64,000 bases of DNA from Periplaneta americana (taxonomy: Eukaryota; Arthropoda; Insecta; Blattodea; Blattidae). How positions within the stretch are numbered: position 1 is the first letter of the stretch; each line of letters begins with the position of its first letter. Below, in pieces: positions 3,182-64,000 of this stretch. The position numbers and the translations under genes are program-made. Location: positions 129,897,121-129,961,120 of the forward strand of contig NC_091125.1 of NCBI RefSeq assembly GCF_040183065.1, written 5' to 3'. The notes beneath the pieces are model-generated. The model did not search any database. It was not told where the DNA came from and saw only the letters and a list, made by a program, of their open reading frames with translations.

Positions 3182-4285
3182 AATACTATTAAGTTTCAAA
3201 TGGGCCGTCTGTGCTTATCTAGTTTTATGAAGTACTAATAATAACATGAACGTTTTCGGCACTGGTGTGCCATTTTCAAATGTATAGAAGATGCTGCCTA
3301 GTTACATTGTCAAATAGATACACGTAAACATGATCATTATGTGTGTGAAAACTTATAGTATATACCCTTAAATTATAACATGAAATGCAAAACCCTTACA
3401 TATAGTTAATTAAAACACATACTTAAAAATAGTAAATTAAAATATTGTTTTGCTATTATAAAGTCCATCATTGTGTGATGAACGTTGTGGTTAACTTGAC
3501 GTTGTCAGATGGAGTGATCCAGTTTCATATTAAAAACGTTGTTTAGTTGCACTATGATGTAAAATATTAAAATGTTAATTAAACTGTGGAAGTCATAAAA
3601 TCGTTTCTTATTGATCAAGGTCCACTTGTCTTTTGTTGATCACTTTCACATAATGAAGCACAAGGCTAGGCTGATATTCGGACGGTGACAACCCAGAATT
3701 TGTAACATCTTAACATCGGCAATCTGAAGAAAACAAATACCAGGTATTATAATTAATCACCGCAACTTACATTACGTGTCACAGACCATGTTTCATTATT
3801 GCGAAGTGCTTCATTATGTGAAAGTGATCAACAAAAGACAAGTGGACCTTGATCAATAAGAAACGATTTCATGACTTCCACAGTTTAATTAACATTTTAA
3901 TATTTCACATCATAGTGCAACTAAACAACGTTTTTAATATGAAACTGGATCACTCCATTTGACAACGTCAAGTTAACCACAACGTTCATCACACAACGAT
4001 GGACATTATAATAGCAAAACAATATTTTAATTTACTATTTTTAAGTATGTGTTTTAATTAACTATATGTAAGGATTTTGCATTTCATGTTATAATTTAAG
4101 GGTATATACTATAAGTTTTCACACACATAATGATCATGTTTACGTGTATCTATTTGACAATGTAACTAGGCAGCATCTTCTATACATTTGAAAATGGCAC
4201 ACCAGTGCCGAAAACGTTCATGTTATAATTAGTACTTCATAAAATTAGATAAGCACAGACGGCCCATTTGAAACTTAATAGTATT
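3182..4285. mobile_element. long inverted repeat (fold-back) element
   Basis: The left arm 3182-3661 and right arm 3806-4285 are reverse complements over about 480 bp with few differences, separated by a 144-bp unique spacer. The outer ends read AATACTATTAAGTTTC and its complement; the inner ends read ...AATGAAGCAC. No coding frame is conserved in the arms. Architecture suggests a non-autonomous fold-back DNA element or large MITE. A target-site duplication is not obvious, so the exact ends are inferred from where the symmetry stops. Confidence 0.8.
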
Positions 4286-13853: not shown

Positions 13854-13973
13854 GTAAGTACAATTTAGAGGACCTAAATATTTTCTATAATTTTCTACAC
13901 TTTATTTATACTTTTAGGCATTAACTAAATAAACGTTAATAATTGTTAATTAGTCTATATTAATTGCTTTCAG

Positions 13974-15735
13974 AATGCTACTAACACTGTTGACTCACAA
14001 CCTAATCATCATGAAAGCTGCTTACGTGTTAGTTATGAAATATCTTTGAAAATCGCAAAGAAATGTCGTCCGTTTACAGAAGGGGAATTCATTAAAGATT
14101 GTATTACCGATGCAGTGCATATAATGTCCCCTAAGAAAGTTAAGAAATACAGCTCGATACCTTTGTCGAGAAATACTGTATCTAGCAGAATAAACGATCT
14201 TGCCGAAGACTCAGAACGTCAATTGAGAAGCCTATGTAATAATTTCGTTTCTTTTTCGCTGGCTACTGATGAGAGCACTGACGTATGTGATACGGCTCAG
14301 CTTGTTGTATTTATTAGAGGAGTGGATGAAAACTTAGAAGTTACGGAGGAATTTTTAGACTTAATTCCTCTGAAAAATACAACAACAGGTGAAGATATTT
14401 TCAACGGAATCGTAAAATCCATTGAACGTGTAGGGCTGTCTTGGGATAAATTGACGTCCGTCACAACTGATGGTGCCCCTTCTATGACTGGAGAGAAGCA
14501 AGGTTTCGTAGGATTATTAAAACGGCATCTTGAATTAAATAATTTCAAACGTAACATAATAGCTATTCATTGTATTATTCATCAAGAAGCCTTATGTGCT
14601 AAACGTGCAAATATTAAACATGTGATGGATGTAGTATTGAAGTGTGTAAATTTCATAAGGTCACATGCTCTAAATCACAGACAATTCAAGGACTTTTTGG
14701 AATCAATTGAATGTGACTTCACGGATGTTCCATATCATTGTGAAGTTCGGTGGCTAAGTTGCGCAAAAACTCTCGAAAGATTTTTCAATTTGAGAGAGTA
14801 CATTTCGGAATTTATGCTTGGGAGGGGCAAAAATATTCCTGAATTAGACGATCCTACATGGGTTCAGGACTTGGCTTTCTTGGTGGACCTCACGAAACAT
14901 TTGAATGATTTAAACTTAAAACTACAAGGGAAAGATAAACTGATTTGTGATATTAATGATGCAGTGAAAGCATTTAAACTTATGATTTCCTTATGGAAAA
15001 CACAAATAGAGGATCACAATTTTACCCATTTTCCCTATCTTCGGTCGCTGAATGCAAGAGTGGACGTCCAGAAATACATAACCATTTTGAGCAGTGTGAA
15101 AGATGAATTTGACAATAGATTTCATGACTTGGAGGCACTGCAATTGAAGTTGGAACTCTTCACTATGCCATACTCTGCAAAGCCTTTGGACGTTCCTTCC
15201 AGTTTGCAACTTGAACTAATCGACTTACAATGTAATTCAGAACTTAAAAAAATCTACATTAATAAAGATATCACTGGATTTTACAAGGCACTTGAACGAA
15301 CACGCTACTCACAATTTCATAAATTTGCAGCAGAAATGATTTCTATATTTTCCAGCACTTACACTTGCGAACAGTTTTTTTCCCTGCAAATCAAGATTTC
15401 AGGTATAACTCCCTGTAAAGTTGATTTGAATAATTTCGAGGGAAAAATTGTTCCGGAGCCGGGTATCGAACCCGGGACCTTTGGTTTAACGTACCAAAGG
15501 TCCCGGGTTCGATACCCGGCTCCGGAACAATTTTTCCCTCGAAATTATTCAGTTTTTTTCCCTGATGAAGCAAAATAAATCTGGAGAGAGAGCCCGACTT
15601 TCAGACGAAAATCTCCGCTCTGTAGTGAGACTTTCTACAGCTAATAAAATAGTGCCAGATATAGAAAGAATAGTATCTGCAAAAGTGAACATTGTGCCTG
15701 ATAATGAAGCATCGTCATCCAAGTCGGACCAGTAA
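13974..15735 (+). pseudogene. hAT transposase, exon 2, interrupted by a SINE
   Basis: The catalytic exon continues in phase 0 from the short intron (NATNTVDSQPNHHE). It shows hAT landmarks in order: FSLATDESTDVCDTAQL (first Asp), LTSVTTDGAPSMTGEKQG (second Asp), IHCIIHQEALCAK, EVRWLSCAKTLERF, and SSTYTCEQFFSL with the dimerisation region. After QFFSL a 163-bp fold-back SINE is inserted (15387-15549) with 15-bp duplications. The original frame resumes at 15565 as MKQNKSGERARLSDENLRSV and ends in SDQ with TAA at 15733-15735. No other stop or frameshift is seen, so the uninterrupted protein would have been about 604 residues. The gene was probably intact until this one insertion. Confidence 0.9.
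15387..15549. mobile_element. tRNA-like fold-back SINE inside hAT transposase
   Basis: A 163-bp insertion flanked by perfect 15-bp duplications CAGTTTTTTTCCCTG (15372-15386, 15550-15564). It begins caaatcaagatttcaggtat and then forms a perfect 57-bp inverted repeat (15429-15485 and 15493-15549) with a 7-nt loop. Each arm contains the T-arm/B-box half of a tRNA-like sequence (cccgggttcgatacccgg). The duplication length points to LINE-type target-primed insertion. It is related to the copies at 52690 and 59038. Confidence 0.9.
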
Positions 15736-22568: not shown

Positions 22569-22768
22569 CCATCAATCATTATCATCGAAGGACTGTAACA
22601 GTCTGTCTTATTCCTGTCTCTTCATGAAATGTCTCAGGGATCTTCTCCTCGTGGGTCAATAATGAAGAGTAAGTTTAATGATAACGAAATTTCTATTTTG
22701 ACAGATTTATTTAAAAATGACAAAAATAATTAATTGATTAACTAGTGGACTTACTCGTGTTAATTATG

Positions 22769-23223
22769 TAAGATTTGTCTGGCTTACAGCTGTTTCAGTG
22801 CTTCACGCACCATCCTCAGAGCCTACTAGATCACGGCGTCATCTCGAACTTCTCTGCCTGTTATGTGGGTGTGTTTGATTGTTGAAAGGTGTTGTAGAGT
22901 GGCTACAAAGAACATATTAGAGCAATAACCAGAGGGCACAATACATCTACATACGCCGATATTATAACCAATGCTAACCATAGATACAATAACATAAATA
23001 CAGACATGGAAATCCTACACATACAACCCAAGAACCAAAAACTCAACACACTAGAACAATATGAAATATACAAACACACTATTTGATTCCACTCTTCAAC
23101 ACCTTTCAACAATCAAACACACCCACATAACAGGCAGAGAAGTTCGAGATGACGCCGTGATCTAGTAGGCTCTGAGGATGGTGCGTGAAGCACTGAAACA
23201 GCTGTAAGCCGGACAAATCTTAC
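22769..23223 (+). mobile_element. Penelope-like element remnant with inverted pseudo-LTRs
   Basis: Two inverted arms of about 127 bp (22769-22894 and 23097-23223; ends gtaagatttgtctggcttac / gtaagccggacaaatcttac) flank a 200-bp coding remnant. On the + strand that remnant reads YKEHIRAITRGHNTSTY, ADIITNANHRYNNINTDM and EILHIQPKNQKLNTLEQYEI, then TGA. This is the distal part of the GIY-YIG endonuclease region of Penelope-like elements. Inverted or tandem terminal pseudo-LTRs are a known property of that class. The reverse transcriptase is absent. In intron 3 of mRpL10. Confidence 0.8.
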
Positions 23224-23552
23224 ATATGGATGACAAAAATTTTGTAGAGTATGTTCTTGTGATATGCTGCTTTATCTACCACATTAATCTTTCTTTAACG
23301 TAACTTTATTGTTTTCAATGTTATCATCCTTTTATGAAAAGTATATGATATTCTGGAATTTACCTCGGTGATATTTTTATTCTTAATTTTTTCCCTTCCT
23401 GAACATCTTCAGGCTCTTACCAGTGCACACCAGTTTACAGATCACTGTTGTAGCCATCACTGTTGTGGTGAATGAACGTTGTGCATATAAAGAACGTGAG
23501 TGAAAAATGGTTTCCATTTTCATAATTGAAAATGTAAATGTATTTGTTTCAG

Positions 23553-31682: not shown

Positions 31683-32117
31683 CCAGCGTTTCTCAAACTA
31701 TGGGTCGTGAGTGATGTTTTGATGGGTCGTGGAATGATACGTCAGGTCTATAAAAAATGTTTTAAAAGTTATTATCAACATTCAATTAACTTCTCAGCTT
31801 GCAGTGAACATGGGAGTAGTAAACCTGTCTGCTTTCAGTGAACACGAGACTGAAAACAAAACTAATACAGCACACCTGCAACAATGGGCGTTATGAGTGC
31901 ATTCACTCTCTTTAATTTAATTGAGATCAGTAGCAGTGTATTTATGTAATGTAATTCTAATTGACGAAAGTCAACAATGAGTTTTAATCAGCTTGAAATT
32001 TAATTCTAATAATGGGAAATAAAATGTTACTGCTAATAAAATAAAATTTTTCTTCAGTAGTCTTCTGTTGTGTCTTTCTTCGTGTGCTTGTGAGTTTATA
32101 TAAAATTAATTAGTTAG
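31683..32117. other. no gene; possible hAT-like end
   Basis: CAGCGTTTCTCAAACTATG at 31685 resembles the terminal repeat of some hAT elements, but no matching second end was found nearby. Otherwise AT-rich. Confidence 0.3.
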
Positions 32118-33095
32118 GAAATAATGTCCATGGATCAGGAAATAAAATCTGCTATCAGAAATTACAATCCACGGATCAGGAAATAAAATCCGCGGATCTG
32201 GAAATATAATCCGCACACAAGGAAATAAAATCCGCTGATCAGGAAATAAAATCCGGTGACCAGGAAATAAAATCCACGATCAGGAAATAAAACTCGCCGA
32301 TCATGACAAAATCCGATATCAGAAATTATAATCCGTGGATCTGAAAATATAATCCGCGGACGAGAAAATAATATCCGCGCCACACAATATAAAATCCGCT
32401 ATCAGAAATTACAATCCTCGGATCAGGAAATAAAATCCGCGGAATCAACAAATAAAATCAGCGATCAGGAAACAAAATCCGCGAACATGGATATAAAATT
32501 CCCGGTTCAGGAAATAAAATCCGCGGATCAGGAAATAAAATCCACGCACCAGGAAATAAAATTCGATGATCAAGAAATGAAATTCGCGGACCAGAAAATA
32601 AACCCGCAATCAGGAAATACAATCCGCGCAGAACAAAATAAAATCCGCGGACCAGGATAAATCCGTGGGTCTGATTTCTGATAGCGGATTTTATTTCCAG
32701 ATCCGCGGATTTATCCTGGTCCGCGGATTTTGAAATAAAATCCGTTCGCCAGGAAATAAAATCTGCTATCAGAAATTACAATCCGCTGATCAGGAAATAA
32801 AAATCTGCGGATCAGGGAATAAAATCTGCGCACCAGGAAATAAAATCCGCGGACCTGGAAATAAATCCACGGACATGGAAATAAAATCCGTTATCAGAAA
32901 TTATAATCCGCGGACCTGAAAATAATATCCGCGATCAGGAAATAAAATTCGCGGATCAGAAAATAAAATCCGCAGACTAGGATATAAAATTCGCGGATCA
33001 TAAGATATAATCCGCAGACCAGGATATAAAATTCGCTGATCAGGAGATAAGGTCCGCACACAAGGAAATAAAATCCGCGCAACAGGAAATATAGT
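32118..33095. repeat. ~21-bp minisatellite array
   Basis: About 45 imperfect copies of a ~20-21-bp unit close to ATCAGGAAATAAAATCCGCG. Variants alternate gatcagg / gaccagg, and some units read atcagaaattataatccgcg. At 32640-32735 a block of units is inverted, making a hairpin (ccgcggaccaggataaatcc against its complement). Because units are mostly 21 bp, the minus strand shows open frames with a repeating RGFYFLI heptad. These are unlikely to be genes. Confidence 0.9.
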
Positions 33096-35879: not shown

Positions 35880-36075
35880 CTATAGTTAATTTTGTTCAAC
35901 AATATCGACTTCAGTGGAAAAAAACATGTCAAAAGGATGGATCGCACACGATGGCCTAAACAGATTCTTACTTATGTACCAAGAGGAAAGAGGAAATTGG
36001 GAAGACATGCAAGCGCTGGCATGAGACCGTAACAGATCCTGCAGGGTCTAATACGCGAGGGATATGATGATGATA
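35880..36075 (+). pseudogene. LINE C-terminal fragment with (GAT)n tail
   Basis: The + strand reads QWKKHVKRMDRTRWPKQILT, then YVPRGKRKLGRHASAGM, then DPAGSNTRGI after a frameshift, followed by a short GATGATGAT tail. W..HV.RM...R.P and PRGKRKLGRP are the C-terminal motif of RTE-like reverse transcriptases. A related family member lies at 50190-50640. Confidence 0.65.
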
Positions 36076-36082
36076 TAAATAA

Positions 36083-36374
36083 TTGATTAAATGGCGATCT
36101 TACTCGTGTTAATTATGTAAGTGTGTGCGGCTTACAGCTGTTTCGGTGCTATTCGACACCATCCTCAGAGCCTACTACAACACACAGATCAATTTCAGAA
36201 CACACACTATTTGACACAACTCTTCATCACACGAACGCACCCACACAACAGGCAGCGAAGTTGAGATAGCGCCGAGATCTAGTAGGCTCTGAGGATGGTG
36301 TCGAATAGCACCGAAACAGCTGTAAGCCGCACATGCTTACATAATTAACACGAGTAAGATCGCCATTTAATCAA
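36083..36374. mobile_element. Penelope-like pseudo-LTR pair
   Basis: Arms 36083-36177 and 36280-36374 are nearly perfect inverted repeats of 95 bp (ttgattaaatggcgatctta / taagatcgccatttaatcaa) around about 100 bp that retains only an acacactatttgacacaact-like piece. The arms are homologous to those at 22769-23223. It is a remnant in which almost all coding sequence is gone. Confidence 0.75.
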
Positions 36375-36917
36375 CTGTTTGTATTGTACTTGAATGAACT
36401 GCACCGCGGCGGTTGTGTCGTCTCCGTACACACATACACTTGCTTACTCTGTGCATAACGTATAGTGAATTGGCTTCCTTTCACTGTAAACATGCTGCAA
36501 TGTCACAGGCCCACTTATGACAGTGTTAAAGTCTCTATGCCTTGTACTCAGAAAAACACAGGGCATATGGAGTGATAATAAAATGAAGCGGTTCATCTAT
36601 TTAAATAAATAAGCCACAACTACTGGTGAGAAAACTGAAGAATATGAGAGAAGTAAGACAAGAGAAAAACAGGAAGTAAAAGAGGAAGGAGAAAGAAAAA
36701 CGTGGAATTTGACAAAATGTAAATAGAATAAAAAATGAATAGGGATACATGATTGAAGATTGATAGCATATTAATGTAACGACATATTTACATTAAATGT
36801 TCTGTCACACAAATGGCGGAAGAGAATGTTTAATACTGTAAAGGAAGAGAACTTAAGATCTTACAGTATACAAGCGCTTATATTTTCTATTACTATTTTA
36901 TTTAATCCATGTATTGT

Positions 36918-37262
36918 GGGTCCCTATCACCACGGCATGGCGCGTCCTCAGGTTGCGGATAGAGGAGACGGCCTCCAGATATGGAGGGTAGCTGCGAATA
37001 TATTGAATAAGCAGTCGTGGACAGCCGATAAGGGGTGGTCCTCCAGCTTGGGGGTTGGGCGAAGGGCTAACAACCCATCACCGTAAAAAACAGCTTGTTA
37101 CGTATCCCTATAATAAGATAATATTAAAATGGATTTGAGGGAGGTGGGGTATGATGATAGAGACTGGATTAATCTTGCACAGGATAGGGACCGCTGGCGG
37201 GCTTATGTGAGGGCGGCAATGAACCTTCGGGTTCCTTAAAAGCCATTTGTAAGTAAGTTAAG
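36918..37262 (+). mobile_element. internally deleted LINE derivative, copy 1
   Basis: A 5' module (36918-37102; in frame GMARPQVADRGDGLQIWRVA and GWSSSLGVGRRANNPSP) is joined to the last 140 bp of the LINE A family. That 3' part encodes IKMDLREVGYDDRDWINLAQ, then RDRWRAYVRAAMNLRVP, TAA and a (TAAG) tail at 37249-37262. All reverse transcriptase sequence is missing. The module's last 37 bp (37066-37102) recur at 41364-41400 in front of the same LINE 3' end, so this is likely a mobile non-autonomous form and not a chance deletion. Confidence 0.75.
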
Positions 37263-41363: not shown

Positions 41364-41575
41364 GCTAACAGCCCATCATCGTAAAAAACAGCTTGTTACG
41401 AACCTTTGGAGAAGCCGAGACGTATATGGGAGGATAATATTAAAATGGATTTGAGGGAAGTGGGGTATGATGATAGAGACTGGATTAATCTTGCTCAGGA
41501 TAGAGACCGATGGCGGGCTTATGTGAGGGCGGTAATGAACCTCCGGATTCCTTAAAAGCCATTTGTAAGTAAGTA
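41364..41575 (+). mobile_element. internally deleted LINE derivative, copy 2
   Basis: A 37-bp 5' module end (41364-41400, gctaacagcccatcatcg ... ttgttacg) is fused directly to the LINE A 3' end. That begins at PLEKPRRIWEDNIKMD-like sequence and runs through LREVGYDDRDWINLAQ, then RAYVRAVMNLRIP, TAA and a (TAAG) tail at 41563-41575. It shares the same 5' module with 36918-37262 but keeps slightly more 3' coding sequence. Confidence 0.75.
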
Positions 41576-52688: not shown

Positions 52689-52975
52689 GTACAAATCTGA
52701 CTTGAATAATTTCAAGGGAAAAATTGTTCTGGGGCCGGGTATCGAACTCGAGACCTTTGCCTGAGCGCGCCAATGCTCTACCAGACCCCGGCTCAATTAT
52801 TCCCTTTTTATATCCACATACCTGAAGTGGGTTGACAAGACATCAAAGACCCAGCATTGAGTGCACACTTTTGCTGTGTGACTTAAATTGTGGTTTTCTG
52901 TTGACGAACAGTGACGTGTATTATACAAATCTGGCTTTTCAGAATTAGCTCGCTGTAAAGCTGACTTGAATAATT
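52689..52975 (-). mobile_element. tRNA-like SINE family 4, copies with partial duplication
   Basis: From 52690, acaaatctgacttgaataat and ttcaagggaaaaattgttct lead into a tRNA-like stretch (52729-52792; B-box region gggccgggtatcgaactcga). The body follows (tatccacatacctgaagtgg, gtgtgacttaaattgtgg). A second partial start, ttatacaaatctggcttttc ... gacttgaataatt, lies at 52919-52975. The same body occurs at 59200-59295, so this is the family that makes the fold-backs at 15387 and 59038. Confidence 0.7.
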
Positions 52976-53676: not shown

Positions 53677-54340
53677 TAATTATGCTCAAGTGACCAAAAT
53701 TTTGGAGTTTACTAGTTCGTCCCATGGTCAAACATATATATTAGTTCGGTCCGGAGTCAAGAAGTAAACAATAACAGTCTTACTAATAAACCGTGTATAG
53801 TTTTTATACTAGACTTATGCAGAGTTGAGACAGAAAACTTTACTAATAAACCATGCAGAAGCGATGGACGTATAAACAGCCTGTAACTATACAATGGGAA
53901 TTGCTTTGCAGTAGTTATATACACGAAACCCCTTGTTTAAGCGTTGTATATAGAGAAAAAATGGCCGCCCCTCTAACAGCTGTTCGTATCGACTGTCATT
54001 ATATGATGATGGTTGCCTAGTAACCAAAGAAGAATAAACCAAAGAGCACAGAATAATTAGAATAATATTACTGTAGCTTGTACTCTTTGATCAAATTATA
54101 GTATGGTAATCGATTAGAGCCAGTTGTACTATCGATACTTAACACGCCACACTAGAGCGCTCTACCGGATGCAATAGAGAACCTCAGATATTCTATTCTG
54201 TTTCGTAACGAAGTAATGACGAAACTATGACGTAGCTGTGTAACAGTTGTACTGTTATACGCGACGTATGTAGTGATTATATTAGTAAGGAATTTACACA
54301 CGACTTATAAACGAGCTACTCATTGTATAAGTATAAGACA

Positions 54341-54962
54341 TATGATGAAAGAGTGATGGAGCGGAGAAAAATTCTCTCCGGCGCCGGGATTTGAACCCGG
54401 GTTTTCAGCTCTACGTGCTGATGCTTTATCCACTAAGCCACGCCGGATACAACCCCGACGCCGGTTAGAATCGTCTCAGATTAAGCTCCATCTCTTGGGT
54501 TCCCTCTAGTGGCCGCCCTCTGCACTACGTCATAGATGTCTATGAACGCAGGACCGAAGTCCATACATGTGTTGAGGTGCACTCAGATGAGTGACTGATT
54601 GGCCGGGATCCGACGGTATAGGCGCCGTCTTAAATCACAAAGTGATTTATTACGCATATCATATATATTTTGATGTACCGAAGTACATATGATATTTCCA
54701 TGCAGATATTCTGCGTTATCATATGATGAAAGAGTGATGGAGCGGAGAAAAATTCTCTCCGGCGCCGGGATTTGAACCCGGGTTTTCAGCTCTACGTGCT
54801 GATGCTTTATCCACTAAGCCACGCCGGCACATAGAGCTGAAAACCCGGGTTCAAATCCCGGCGCCGGAGAGAATTTTTCTCCGCTCCATCACTCTTTCAT
54901 CATATGATAACGCAGAATATCTGCATGGAAATATCATATGTACTTCGGTACATCAAAATATA
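54341..54962 (-). mobile_element. tRNA-like fold-back retroposon with 15-bp duplications
   Basis: TATAAGTATAAGACA flanks the insertion on both sides (54326-54340 and 54963-54977). Inside, a 108-bp unit occurs twice in direct orientation (54339-54446 and 54720-54827). A perfect 134-bp inverted repeat follows (54661-54794 with 54832-54965, loop 37 nt). Each unit contains a tRNA-like sequence. The body between them (54447-54660) is unique here. Target duplications of this size suggest LINE-assisted insertion of a structure made by strand switching or by recombination of several copies. Confidence 0.85.
54378..54447 (-). other. tRNA-like sequence, first copy
   Basis: On the minus strand it can form a full cloverleaf: acceptor TCCGGCG/CGCCGGA, D stem GCTT/AAGC, anticodon stem TCAGC/GCTGA with loop ACGTAGA, and T arm CCGGG-TTCAAAT-CCCGG. 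The formal anticodon is GTA (Tyr), but base 33 is C instead of U. It sits in a repeat, so it is a SINE head, not a confident tRNA gene. A second identical copy is at 54759-54828. Confidence 0.7.
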
Positions 54963-55019
54963 TATAAGTATAAGACAGTTAAACGTCTGTATATAGAGTT
55001 TTTATTAGTAAGACCGTAA

Positions 55020-58499: not shown

Positions 58500-59037
58500 T
58501 TATGGAGAGGCGTCCTTAAACTTTTGCTAGGGGCTGTACTGTACCTTTAACATTTTTAGAAATTATTAAAAATTTCATTTTCAATTTGACGTCAATCTCC
58601 CTTGATTGTTAATCAATATGTGATTTGTAGTAATGAAAACTGACTATAAAAGCCATATGTGCAGAGGGGGAAAAACATTATCTGTTTCAAGAAACCATGC
58701 TAGTATACAGTATCCACTATAGTAAGGCTAGCCAGAAGTAGCGGGTGGACTAGATATACTCCCACATCATCTTTCCTACATCGCTTATCTTCAATAGATC
58801 AGTACGAAAAATCATATTCTGATTATAAGTACTACTGAATTTATATACAGTAGGCCTATGTACTTTTTTATTGAGATGCGTTATTATGGTACCCGTAAAT
58901 ATAAGCCAACCCAAAACAACGACGTCATGCTCTGTTACCAAACGTTATACCTGTTTACTGTTCCGTTTACATTCTACATGGAGATAGAATGGATCGGTTT
59001 AAATATCTAAAAAAAAAAAAGTGTTCCTATAATTATT

Positions 59038-59353
59038 ATACAAATCTGGCTTTCAGGTAGTAGCTCCCTGTAAAGCAGGTTTGAATAATTTCAAGGAAAA
59101 ATTGTTCCGGGGCCGGTATCGATCCCGGGACCCTTCGCTTAGCGCACGAACGCTCTACCGACTGAGCTACCCCAGGAACTATACAAGATACCGTCACAAT
59201 TTTTCCTTTTATATCCACACAATTCACATGAGCTGACAAGACTCCAGAACTCAACTGTGAGTGCACACAAATACTGTGTGACTTTAAATTGTGGCGAAGG
59301 GTGCCGGGATCGATACCCGGCCGCGGAACAATTTTCCCTTGAAATTATTCAAA
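59038..59353 (-). mobile_element. tRNA-like fold-back SINE with 12-bp duplications
   Basis: CCTATAATTATT flanks the insertion (59026-59037, 59354-59365). Inverted arms of about 58 bp lie at 59082-59139 and 59296-59353, again centred on the B-box half (ggtatcgatcccggga / gggatcgatacccgg). Between them are the rest of a tRNA-like sequence and a body shared with 52800-52885 (tatccacacaattcacatga, ctgtgtgactttaaattgtg). It is the same architecture as 15387-15549 with a longer loop. Confidence 0.85.
59107..59176 (-). other. tRNA-like sequence in SINE
   Basis: The minus strand reads cctggggtagctcagtcggt (A box), then agagcgttcgtgcgctaagc and a B box in gatcgatacc. D stem GCTC/GAGC and anticodon stem TTCGT/GCGAA can pair. 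The loop GCGCTAA would give GCT, but base 33 is C and the T stem is one pair short. A tRNA-derived promoter, not a functional tRNA. Confidence 0.7.
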
Positions 59354-59685
59354 CCTATAATTATTGTTTATATAACAGCGCACGGAAATGTAGTGACTAA
59401 CACGTCCGTCTTTGTAGTTGGGACGTTCGGGATTCGATCCCAGGGGCCGTTTATCCTGATTTGCTTCAGAGTAAGTAAACACTACTCCCTTCCACCAGCT
59501 AAAATTCTACATGATGGAAAGACCGCTCCCCTCCTAGCTAAAACCTAAAACATCAGTATATGGACAGTACAGCCGATAGGAACTGAATATAGGTCGTCAC
59601 TACTGTCTGTTGGAGGACACGTGACAACTAGTTAATGTTTGTAAACAAAACGCACGGACCAAGGATGCCTATCCTGATACAGCTA

Positions 59686-62739: not shown

Positions 62740-63617
62740 TACTTACTGACTTACTGGCTTTTAAGGAACCCGGAGGTTCATTGTCGCCCTCACATAAGCC
62801 CGCTATTGGTCCCTATCCTGAGCAAGATCAATCCAGTCTCTATCATCATATCCCACCTCCCTCAAATCCATTTTAATATTATCTTCCCATCTACGTCTCG
62901 GTCTCCCCAAAGGTCTTTTTCCCTCCGGCCTCCCATCTAACACTCTATATGTATTTCTGGATTCGCCCGTACGTGCTACATCTCAAACGTCTGGATTTAA
63001 TGTTCCTAATTATATCAGGTGAGGAATACAATGCGTGCAGTTCTATATTGTGTAACTTTCTCCATTCTCCTGTAACTTCACCCCTCTTAGCCCCAAATAT
63101 TTTTCTAAGAACCTTGTTCTCAAACACCCTTAACCTATGTTCCTCTCTCAAAATGAGAGTCCAAGTTTCACAACCATAAAGAACAACCGGTAATACAACT
63201 GTTTTATAAATTCTAACTTTCAGATATTTTGACAGCAGACTGGATGATAAAAGCTTCTCAACCGAATAATAACAGGCATTTCCCATATTTATTCTGTGTT
63301 TAATTTCCTTCCGAGTATCATTTATATTTGTTACTGTTGCTACCAGGTATTTGAATTTTTCCACCTCTTCAAAGGATAAACTTCCAATTTGTATATTTCC
63401 ATTTCGTGCAATATTCCCGTCACGAGACATAATCATATACTTTGTCTTTTCGGGATTTACTTGCAAACCTAACGCTTTACTTGATTCAAGTAAAATTCCC
63501 GTATTTTCCCTAATCGTTTGTGGATTTTCTCCTAACATATTCACGTCATCCGCATAGACAAGAAGCTGATGTAGGCTAACCCGTTCAATTACAAACCCTC
63601 TCTGTTATCCTGGACTT
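62740..63617 (-). pseudogene. LINE reverse transcriptase, 5'-truncated copy B
   Basis: Same family as 1475-2808. It starts just upstream of the catalytic [14 protein letters not shown] (about 63560) and continues through [61 protein letters not shown] and NIKSRRLR. There a 10-nt deletion removes the WAGHV region and shifts the frame (about 62985). The last 240 bp to the (TAAG) tail are still recognisable. Unlike copy A it keeps the Glu of TGEW. The truncation point is near 63617. Confidence 0.88.
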
Positions 63618-64000
63618 TACCATTTTTTATATAGGTCTACGTTAATTTTTAAAAATGTTATACCTATTTCAAGATGTAACTTATTTTTAAATAACCATAT
63701 ACTGTGATTTGCAAACAGTAACGAATTATAATGTTCGTGGAACTTGTATAACCTAGCAGTCTAAACCTACATTATATACTTAAGAAACAAAAATGGTTAA
63801 GATATAAATGATTGCTTTGGCTATACCTACATAAGTTCTGAGGGAGAAACATTAATTCTTTTCGTCCAATCGCCATTTCTGATCAGCCCTTGTACAATTT
63901 TAATAACCTATAACTACTAGTTATTAGTTCACAATAAAACAACATCATTAAATTAAAAAATAATTATGATTGAAGTAACATATACACCAAATGTTCATGT
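63618..64000. other. no gene recognised
   Basis: AT-rich sequence to the window edge, no recognised feature. Confidence 0.35.

Follow-up and report, generated by a model that had tools for sequence, protein, structure and literature searches.

The 64-kb window analysed here, which is the whole stretch of 64,000 nucleotides of Periplaneta americana DNA, carries a 622-bp insert (54341-54962) enclosed by a single pair of perfect 15-bp duplications. The left target-site duplication, TATAAGTATAAGACA (54326-54340), is repeated exactly on the right (54963-54977), as the initial annotation had proposed. Read on the minus strand, the insert consists of an antisense tail, body and half tRNA, then unit 1 (tRNA, body and tail, 173 nt), a 208-nt linker and unit 2 (tRNA and partial body). 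On the forward coordinates, the left duplication is followed by the partial body of unit 2 (54341-54375, minus strand; 35 nt, ending in CATATG at the duplication), the 72-nt tRNA-Tyr-like head of the same unit (54376-54447, minus), the linker separating unit 1 from unit 2 (54448-54655, minus), the rest of unit 1 (54656-54756, minus), which comprises its body, its AT-rich tail and a GTAC-TTCG-GTAC hairpin, and the 72-nt tRNA-Tyr-like head of unit 1 (54757-54828, minus). Three bases at the inversion junction, ACA on the plus strand (54829-54831), then lead to a 5′-shortened unit in the opposite orientation, which runs from the anticodon loop to the tail (54832-54962, plus) and belongs to a perfect inverted arm of 134 nt. 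The tail of this plus-strand partial unit is flush with the right duplication, and unit 2 has no tail. The full 173-nt unit, the linker and the flush tail of the inverted partial unit go beyond what had been described before. No tail apart from that of the inverted partial unit reaches a duplication, so that the 3′ end of the insertion is most simply placed at 54962.

Both heads were recognised by ARAGORN as tRNA-Tyr-like, on the minus strand in each case, and matched the Rfam tRNA family with 63 bits (unit 2) and 56.1 bits (unit 1). The complete cloverleaf with a 7-bp acceptor stem, previously attributed to the tRNA-like part in general, is true of the unit 2 head (54376-54447; z = -3.57), while in the unit 1 head (54757-54828) the outermost acceptor pair is broken. 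A B box was found by pattern, and TGGCTTAGTGG fits, by eye, the A box consensus TRGYNNARNNG (PMC9191728). The insert therefore has the head expected of a tRNA-derived SINE, tRNA-like and with Pol III promoter boxes inside it, and its exact 15-bp duplications compare with the usual length of about 10-15 bp. A 3′ tail at a duplication is present for the plus-strand partial unit only. The layout departs from that of such SINEs, which consist of a single unit or a dimer in one orientation, whereas here an inverted unit lies inside one duplication pair. A T5 run located just after the tRNA was considered as a case against Pol III transcription, an argument that was dropped because another tRNA-SINE-like family in the window has T6 in its body. 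The linker (54448-54655, minus) holds CCACTAGAGGGA and a GGAC-TTCG-GTCC hairpin. CCACTAGAGGGA is close to a CTCF core motif, and the linker and the unit together may resemble a repeat common in cockroach sequences.

The two direct copies of 108 nt (54339-54446 and 54720-54827) are 100% identical, in agreement with the initial annotation. This 108-bp repeat is a shortened form of the 173-nt unit (54656-54828), and the first 2 nt of its left copy (CA) are common to the element and the duplication. The inverted repeat described earlier, with its third, partial unit, was likewise recovered. Its arms (54661-54794 and 54832-54965) are perfect over 134 nt and 99% identical over 139 nt, and the last 3 nt of the right arm (TAT) fall inside the duplication. 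Apart from one mismatch, positions 54827-54834 agree with the anticodon loop of the unit, and the inversion junction shows a short imperfect match, GCACATAG versus GCACGTAG. In addition, ACATA marks either edge of the inverted block, at 54338-54342 and at 54829-54833, a pair that could be a short duplication left by a second insertion or a piece of the 5′ leader of the RNA.

Within the 64-kb window there was no second copy of the insert, nhmmer found no second copy of the linker and none was seen of a unit-linker-unit RNA source. The insert has no coding frame of at least 110 codons. The probability that one given flush 15-mer pair arises by chance is about 3e-9. When exact 15-mers repeated 150-700 bp apart were counted in 20 first-order Markov windows, 17 of them contained no such pair and the remaining three contained 1, 3 and 1. 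The real window has 873 15-mer pairs at this spacing, which are not evidence, since they stem from the repeats of the window, the insert included. The insert is an apparently recent retroposon insertion of unusual form.

B-box patterns, inverted-repeat scans, BLAST and nhmmer, applied to the 64-kb window, revealed a second tRNA-headed family (family B, the insert being family A) with three loci, all on the minus strand. The locus el2 (15372-15564, including 15-bp duplications CAGTTTTTTTCCCTG at 15372 and 15550) is a palindrome with perfect arms of 59 nt (15427-15485 and 15493-15551) and a tail on one side only, the 7 nt at its centre being, by position, exactly the anticodon loop. The minus strand of el3 (59026-59365, including 12-bp duplications CCTATAATTATT at 59026 and 59354) reads as an inverted half-unit, a linker and a tRNA-body-tail unit, and its inverted arms, in which small indels occur, share 93.7% identity in 63 aligned columns. 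The third locus (52690-52975) is made of a tail fragment, the same linker as in el3 and a unit whose tRNA head is partly deleted; neither an inversion nor a duplication was found there. The edges of el2 and el3 match their own duplications over 2 and 3 nt, respectively, and the inverted pieces of both end within a few bases of each other. These two loci may share ancestry and thus may not be independent. Inverted pieces were present in 2 of the 3 family B loci and in 3 of the 4 loci of families A and B combined, and all three inverted loci have their own duplications and an inversion junction at the anticodon arm. As further observations on family B, the linkers at 59176-59296 and 52776-52893 (minus) carry a TATA-box-like GGATATAAAA upstream of the tRNA head, which is conserved between both loci. 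The el2 sequence (15387-15551) lies within a 542-codon open frame (13950-15575) whose DUF4371 match (29.4 bits) is below the cut-off of 32.1, so that el2 seems to have been inserted into another mobile element.

As controls we used seven further tRNA-SINE-like loci of the window (12524, 38383 and 39363; 1035, 21663 and 45795; 25323). None of the seven appeared among the best 40 pairs listed by the inverted-repeat scan or among the inverted pairs given by BLAST (E 1e-6). As to duplications, D1 and D3 had clear ones of 10 and 12 bp, respectively, C3 had a doubtful AT-rich 12-mer, D2 showed by eye a 13-bp duplication with one mismatch, and none was found in C1, C2 and E1. A one-sided Fisher test of families A and B against the controls gave 0.024, a value to be read as that of a comparison chosen post hoc in which only 2 of the 7 controls had clear duplications by script. 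The excess of inversions in families A and B is a pointer, not proof, and a hint of a family-wide tendency. With 2000 shuffles for each comparison, the tRNA parts of both families were alike (p = 0.015) and no significant likeness was detected outside the tRNA (body/body, p = 0.23 and 0.30; linker/linker, p = 0.22). The shuffle tests therefore gave no support for an origin shared by both families in the parts other than the tRNA. Both carry AATTTTTC at an equal offset after the tRNA, which may be chance.

Searches with family A patterns gave 0 matches in viral and prokaryotic contigs, and those with family B patterns gave 0 in viral contigs and 2 in prokaryotic contigs (L001 and L002). A control tRNA-SINE-like pattern from the window also gave 0 matches in the viral contigs, so these zeros say nothing about insect DNA. 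Both L001 and L002 are titled as bacterial MAGs and were rejected as family B relatives, the matches being due to chance; when compared with the window (E 1e-5), L001 matched only 26 bp around the pattern, in both el2 arms, and L002 had no match.

Other repeats were observed in the window. Two inverted-repeat pairs at 22717-23240 (arms of 138 bp, 98.6% identical) and 36073-36384 (105 bp, 95.2%) are related to each other, and the former has an 11-bp duplication, ATGACAAAAAT. Both pairs carry CTGAGGA..GAAAC hammerhead-like motifs in both arms, which account for 4 of the 14 loose matches in the window. On the basis of these motifs the pairs are probably Penelope remnants, a label that was confirmed neither by Rfam, applied to 22700-23290 only, nor by Pfam, applied to a 58-aa piece. 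At 3182-4285, two arms of about 480 bp enclose about 144 bp of spacer in a large inverted repeat. Direct copies with 89.7% identity, at 1471-2355 and 62740-63618, have reverse-transcriptase frames on the minus strand (frame 1810-2889, RVT_1 E 1.1e-35; frame 62948-63604, E 2.2e-6, below its cut-off), and shorter pieces occur at 37115-37258 and 41402-41575. Finally, 32116-33093 is a diverged tandem array with a GGAAATAAAATCCGCGGATCA-like unit.

Like the tRNA-derived SINEs described in Blattodea, the insert has a tRNA-like head with A and B boxes and a duplication in the range of 10-15 bp, and dimers are known among them, such as Sbg9 in the cockroach Blattella germanica (PMC9191728). In contrast to the insert, Blattodea SINEs are described without an inverted unit, the comparison with Sbg1-Sbg9 and termite Talua-Talud being one of descriptions only (PMC9191728). 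A parallel for the inversion is the 5′-inverted L1, which combines one pair of 10-20 bp duplications, a direct 3′ part with a tail, an inverted 5′ part and short matches at the junctions (PMC2912911, PMC4245944, PMC12016303). Duplications of 10-20 bp are reported for most inverted L1s (PMC4245944), and their reliance on short junction matches is reflected by the 28 of 605 that lack them (PMC2912911). Unlike these L1s, the insert is a tRNA-headed SINE-like dimer in which 75-80 nt were copied twice, and such events are near-absent in Alu, with 1 inverted copy in 5554 in one survey (PMC2912911) and one among 5936 germline insertions, or 0.02%, in another (PMC12016303). In cell assays, 5′ inversion is described for human L1 in human cells and otherwise for one Nimb-2_DR insert only (PMC4245944). 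Among the matches listed for inverted, palindromic or dimeric SINEs and for Penelope together with SINE or tRNA, a literature lying mostly outside subscription journals, titles and abstract openings contained no tRNA-headed element of this layout.

We consider that the insert was probably produced by one retroposition event of a tRNA-headed SINE-like element, in which cDNAs were joined in opposite orientation by twin priming or, equally, by template switching, so that the array would be a by-product of insertion. Twin priming is indicated by the single exact 15-bp duplication pair around the whole insert, by the flush tail of the plus-strand arm, by the inverted block that begins within the body at the opposite edge, and by the bases shared at the left edge (2 nt, CA), at the right edge (3 nt, TAT) and at the inversion (GCACATAG versus GCACGTAG). 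The edge matches of el2 and el3 are of the same kind. Template switching during target-primed reverse transcription, one of the two explanations put forward in the initial annotation, is compatible with the same observations (one duplication pair, a SINE-like tail flush with it and short shared bases at the junctions), and stands on a par with twin priming. The template would have been an RNA carrying unit 1, the linker and unit 2 in this order. One cDNA, the first, would have started in the tail at one end of the target and halted in the anticodon arm of the head. The other target end would have primed a second cDNA inside the body through the 2-nt match (CA), and this cDNA would have run through unit 2, the linker and unit 1 up to the 5′ end of the unit 1 head. 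Both cDNAs would then have been joined at the short imperfect match. The enzyme may have been of LINE or of Penelope type.

Part of the data fits this single event less easily. The stretch present in both cDNAs is 75-80 nt, compared with a median overlap of 12 bp at L1 inversions (PMC12016303), and a single RNA primed simply at two points may be too little to account for it. Furthermore, the inverted ends of el2 and el3 nearly coincide, which counts against random internal priming. The rarity of inverted Alu, the near-restriction of 5′ inversion to human L1 in cell assays and the lack of a second unit-linker-unit copy in the window also weigh against this reading. These misfits would, we infer, be eased if two RNA templates were involved, if the enzyme displaced strands or if the cDNA primed itself from the anticodon hairpin. 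With the anticodon loop at its centre, el2 agrees well with hairpin self-priming. In family A, where the inverted block reaches the 5′ end of the tRNA head, the anticodon hairpin alone is not enough. To judge from the inverted half-units of family B, elements of this type seem unusually prone to inversion in this host.

A different reading would make the insert a non-autonomous Penelope-type element, in which the tRNA-headed unit stands for the pseudo-LTR, the linker serves as interior and the shorter unit in inverted orientation corresponds to the inverted pseudo-LTR that usually lies next to it, the whole being made by a Penelope-type enzyme and partly self-primed at the inversion junction. 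We regard this as unlikely. In Adineta, Penelope elements are described with two pseudo-LTRs in direct orientation and, next to them, a third that is shorter and inverted; one member of the inverted pair may bear a tail, a single duplication surrounds the whole, and the palindromes at the inversion junctions are attributed to self-priming (PMC3846280). The insert follows this plan, with direct, direct and inverted shorter units, a short interior, a tail on one of the inverted pair and one duplication, the match being one of layout only; el2 and el3 share the inverted-unit part of the plan. The 7-nt anticodon loop at the el2 centre is what hairpin self-priming would give, and the two inverted-repeat pairs in the window resemble Penelope remnants. 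Against these points, the tRNA-like head is located in the repeated unit, and the insert carries neither a reverse transcriptase or GIY-YIG endonuclease frame nor a hammerhead-like motif, none of the 14 loose matches of the window falling within 54341-54962. The insert had no BLAST match (E 1e-6) to the two presumed Penelope pairs, whose identity Rfam and Pfam did not confirm, and the extent of its inverted block makes the anticodon hairpin insufficient here too. Since hammerhead, long frame and BLAST match to the pairs are all lacking, we did not file the insert as a Penelope element. It is even more speculative, and in our view improbable, that the insert represents a class of non-coding elements built on the Penelope plan from tRNA-like units (unit, linker, unit and an inverted unit), in which the tRNA-like fold takes the place of the hammerhead and the anticodon hairpin in the cDNA self-primes the inverted arm.

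Two other classes of short non-coding elements were considered and rejected. Helenus, a TRIM with a tRNA-like sequence in the LTR, resembles the insert in having two direct repeats with a tRNA-like sequence and a short non-coding interior, but it has duplications of 4-5 bp instead of 15 bp, the reason for its rejection, and there is no inverted unit in its described structure (PMC10886601). Metazoan non-LTR retrozymes also consist of short non-coding tandem units, and Penelope-type helper enzymes have been proposed for them; unlike the insert, in which none was found, they are defined by hammerhead ribozymes (PMC7761336).

The array might instead belong to a standing composite family, the whole direct-plus-inverted structure being transcribed and retroposed as one piece. 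A whole plus-strand transcript would end in a proper tail at 54962, and family B points in the same direction, since the order tail-linker-tRNA head recurs at one of its loci and the order linker-tRNA head at two. However, the array is present as a single copy within 64 kb, the family B loci combine their parts differently and not as the same array, and the plus-strand unit that bears the tail is missing the 5′ half of its tRNA head, which leaves this a poor candidate. The composite SINE class that the initial annotation offered as its second explanation would thus be the less probable one: the window holds one copy of the insert, and the two inverted family B loci share with it the inverted half-unit but not the whole layout.

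We see very little chance that the array was built by two successive insertions, of which the later one hit the 5′ edge of a 5′-shortened copy of the same family that was already in place. The ACATA pair (54338-54342 and 54829-54833) can be read as the 5-bp duplication of such an event, but the second element would have had to be tailless, of the same family and inserted within a few bases of the edge of the first. The 75-80 nt and 108-nt repeats have not diverged except for one base, so both insertions would have to be equally young. An assembly artefact, with the inverted arm as a false join or a chimeric read, is similarly far-fetched: the arms are perfect over 134 bp, as an artefact would have them, yet the duplication encloses the whole insert with the tail at its edge, and el3, within 40 kb, contains a comparable inverted pair in which small indels and an identity of 93.7% between the arms attest to divergence, which is not what an artefact would show.

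Inverted SINEs are near-absent in the surveys that counted them (1 in 5554 and 1 in 5936 Alu), yet 3 of the 4 loci of families A and B are inverted here, small as these numbers are. Should this apply across the genome, the host would offer a natural setting in which to study what decides between forward and backward joining of retroposons, and to ask whether Penelope-type enzymes can move tRNA-derived elements.
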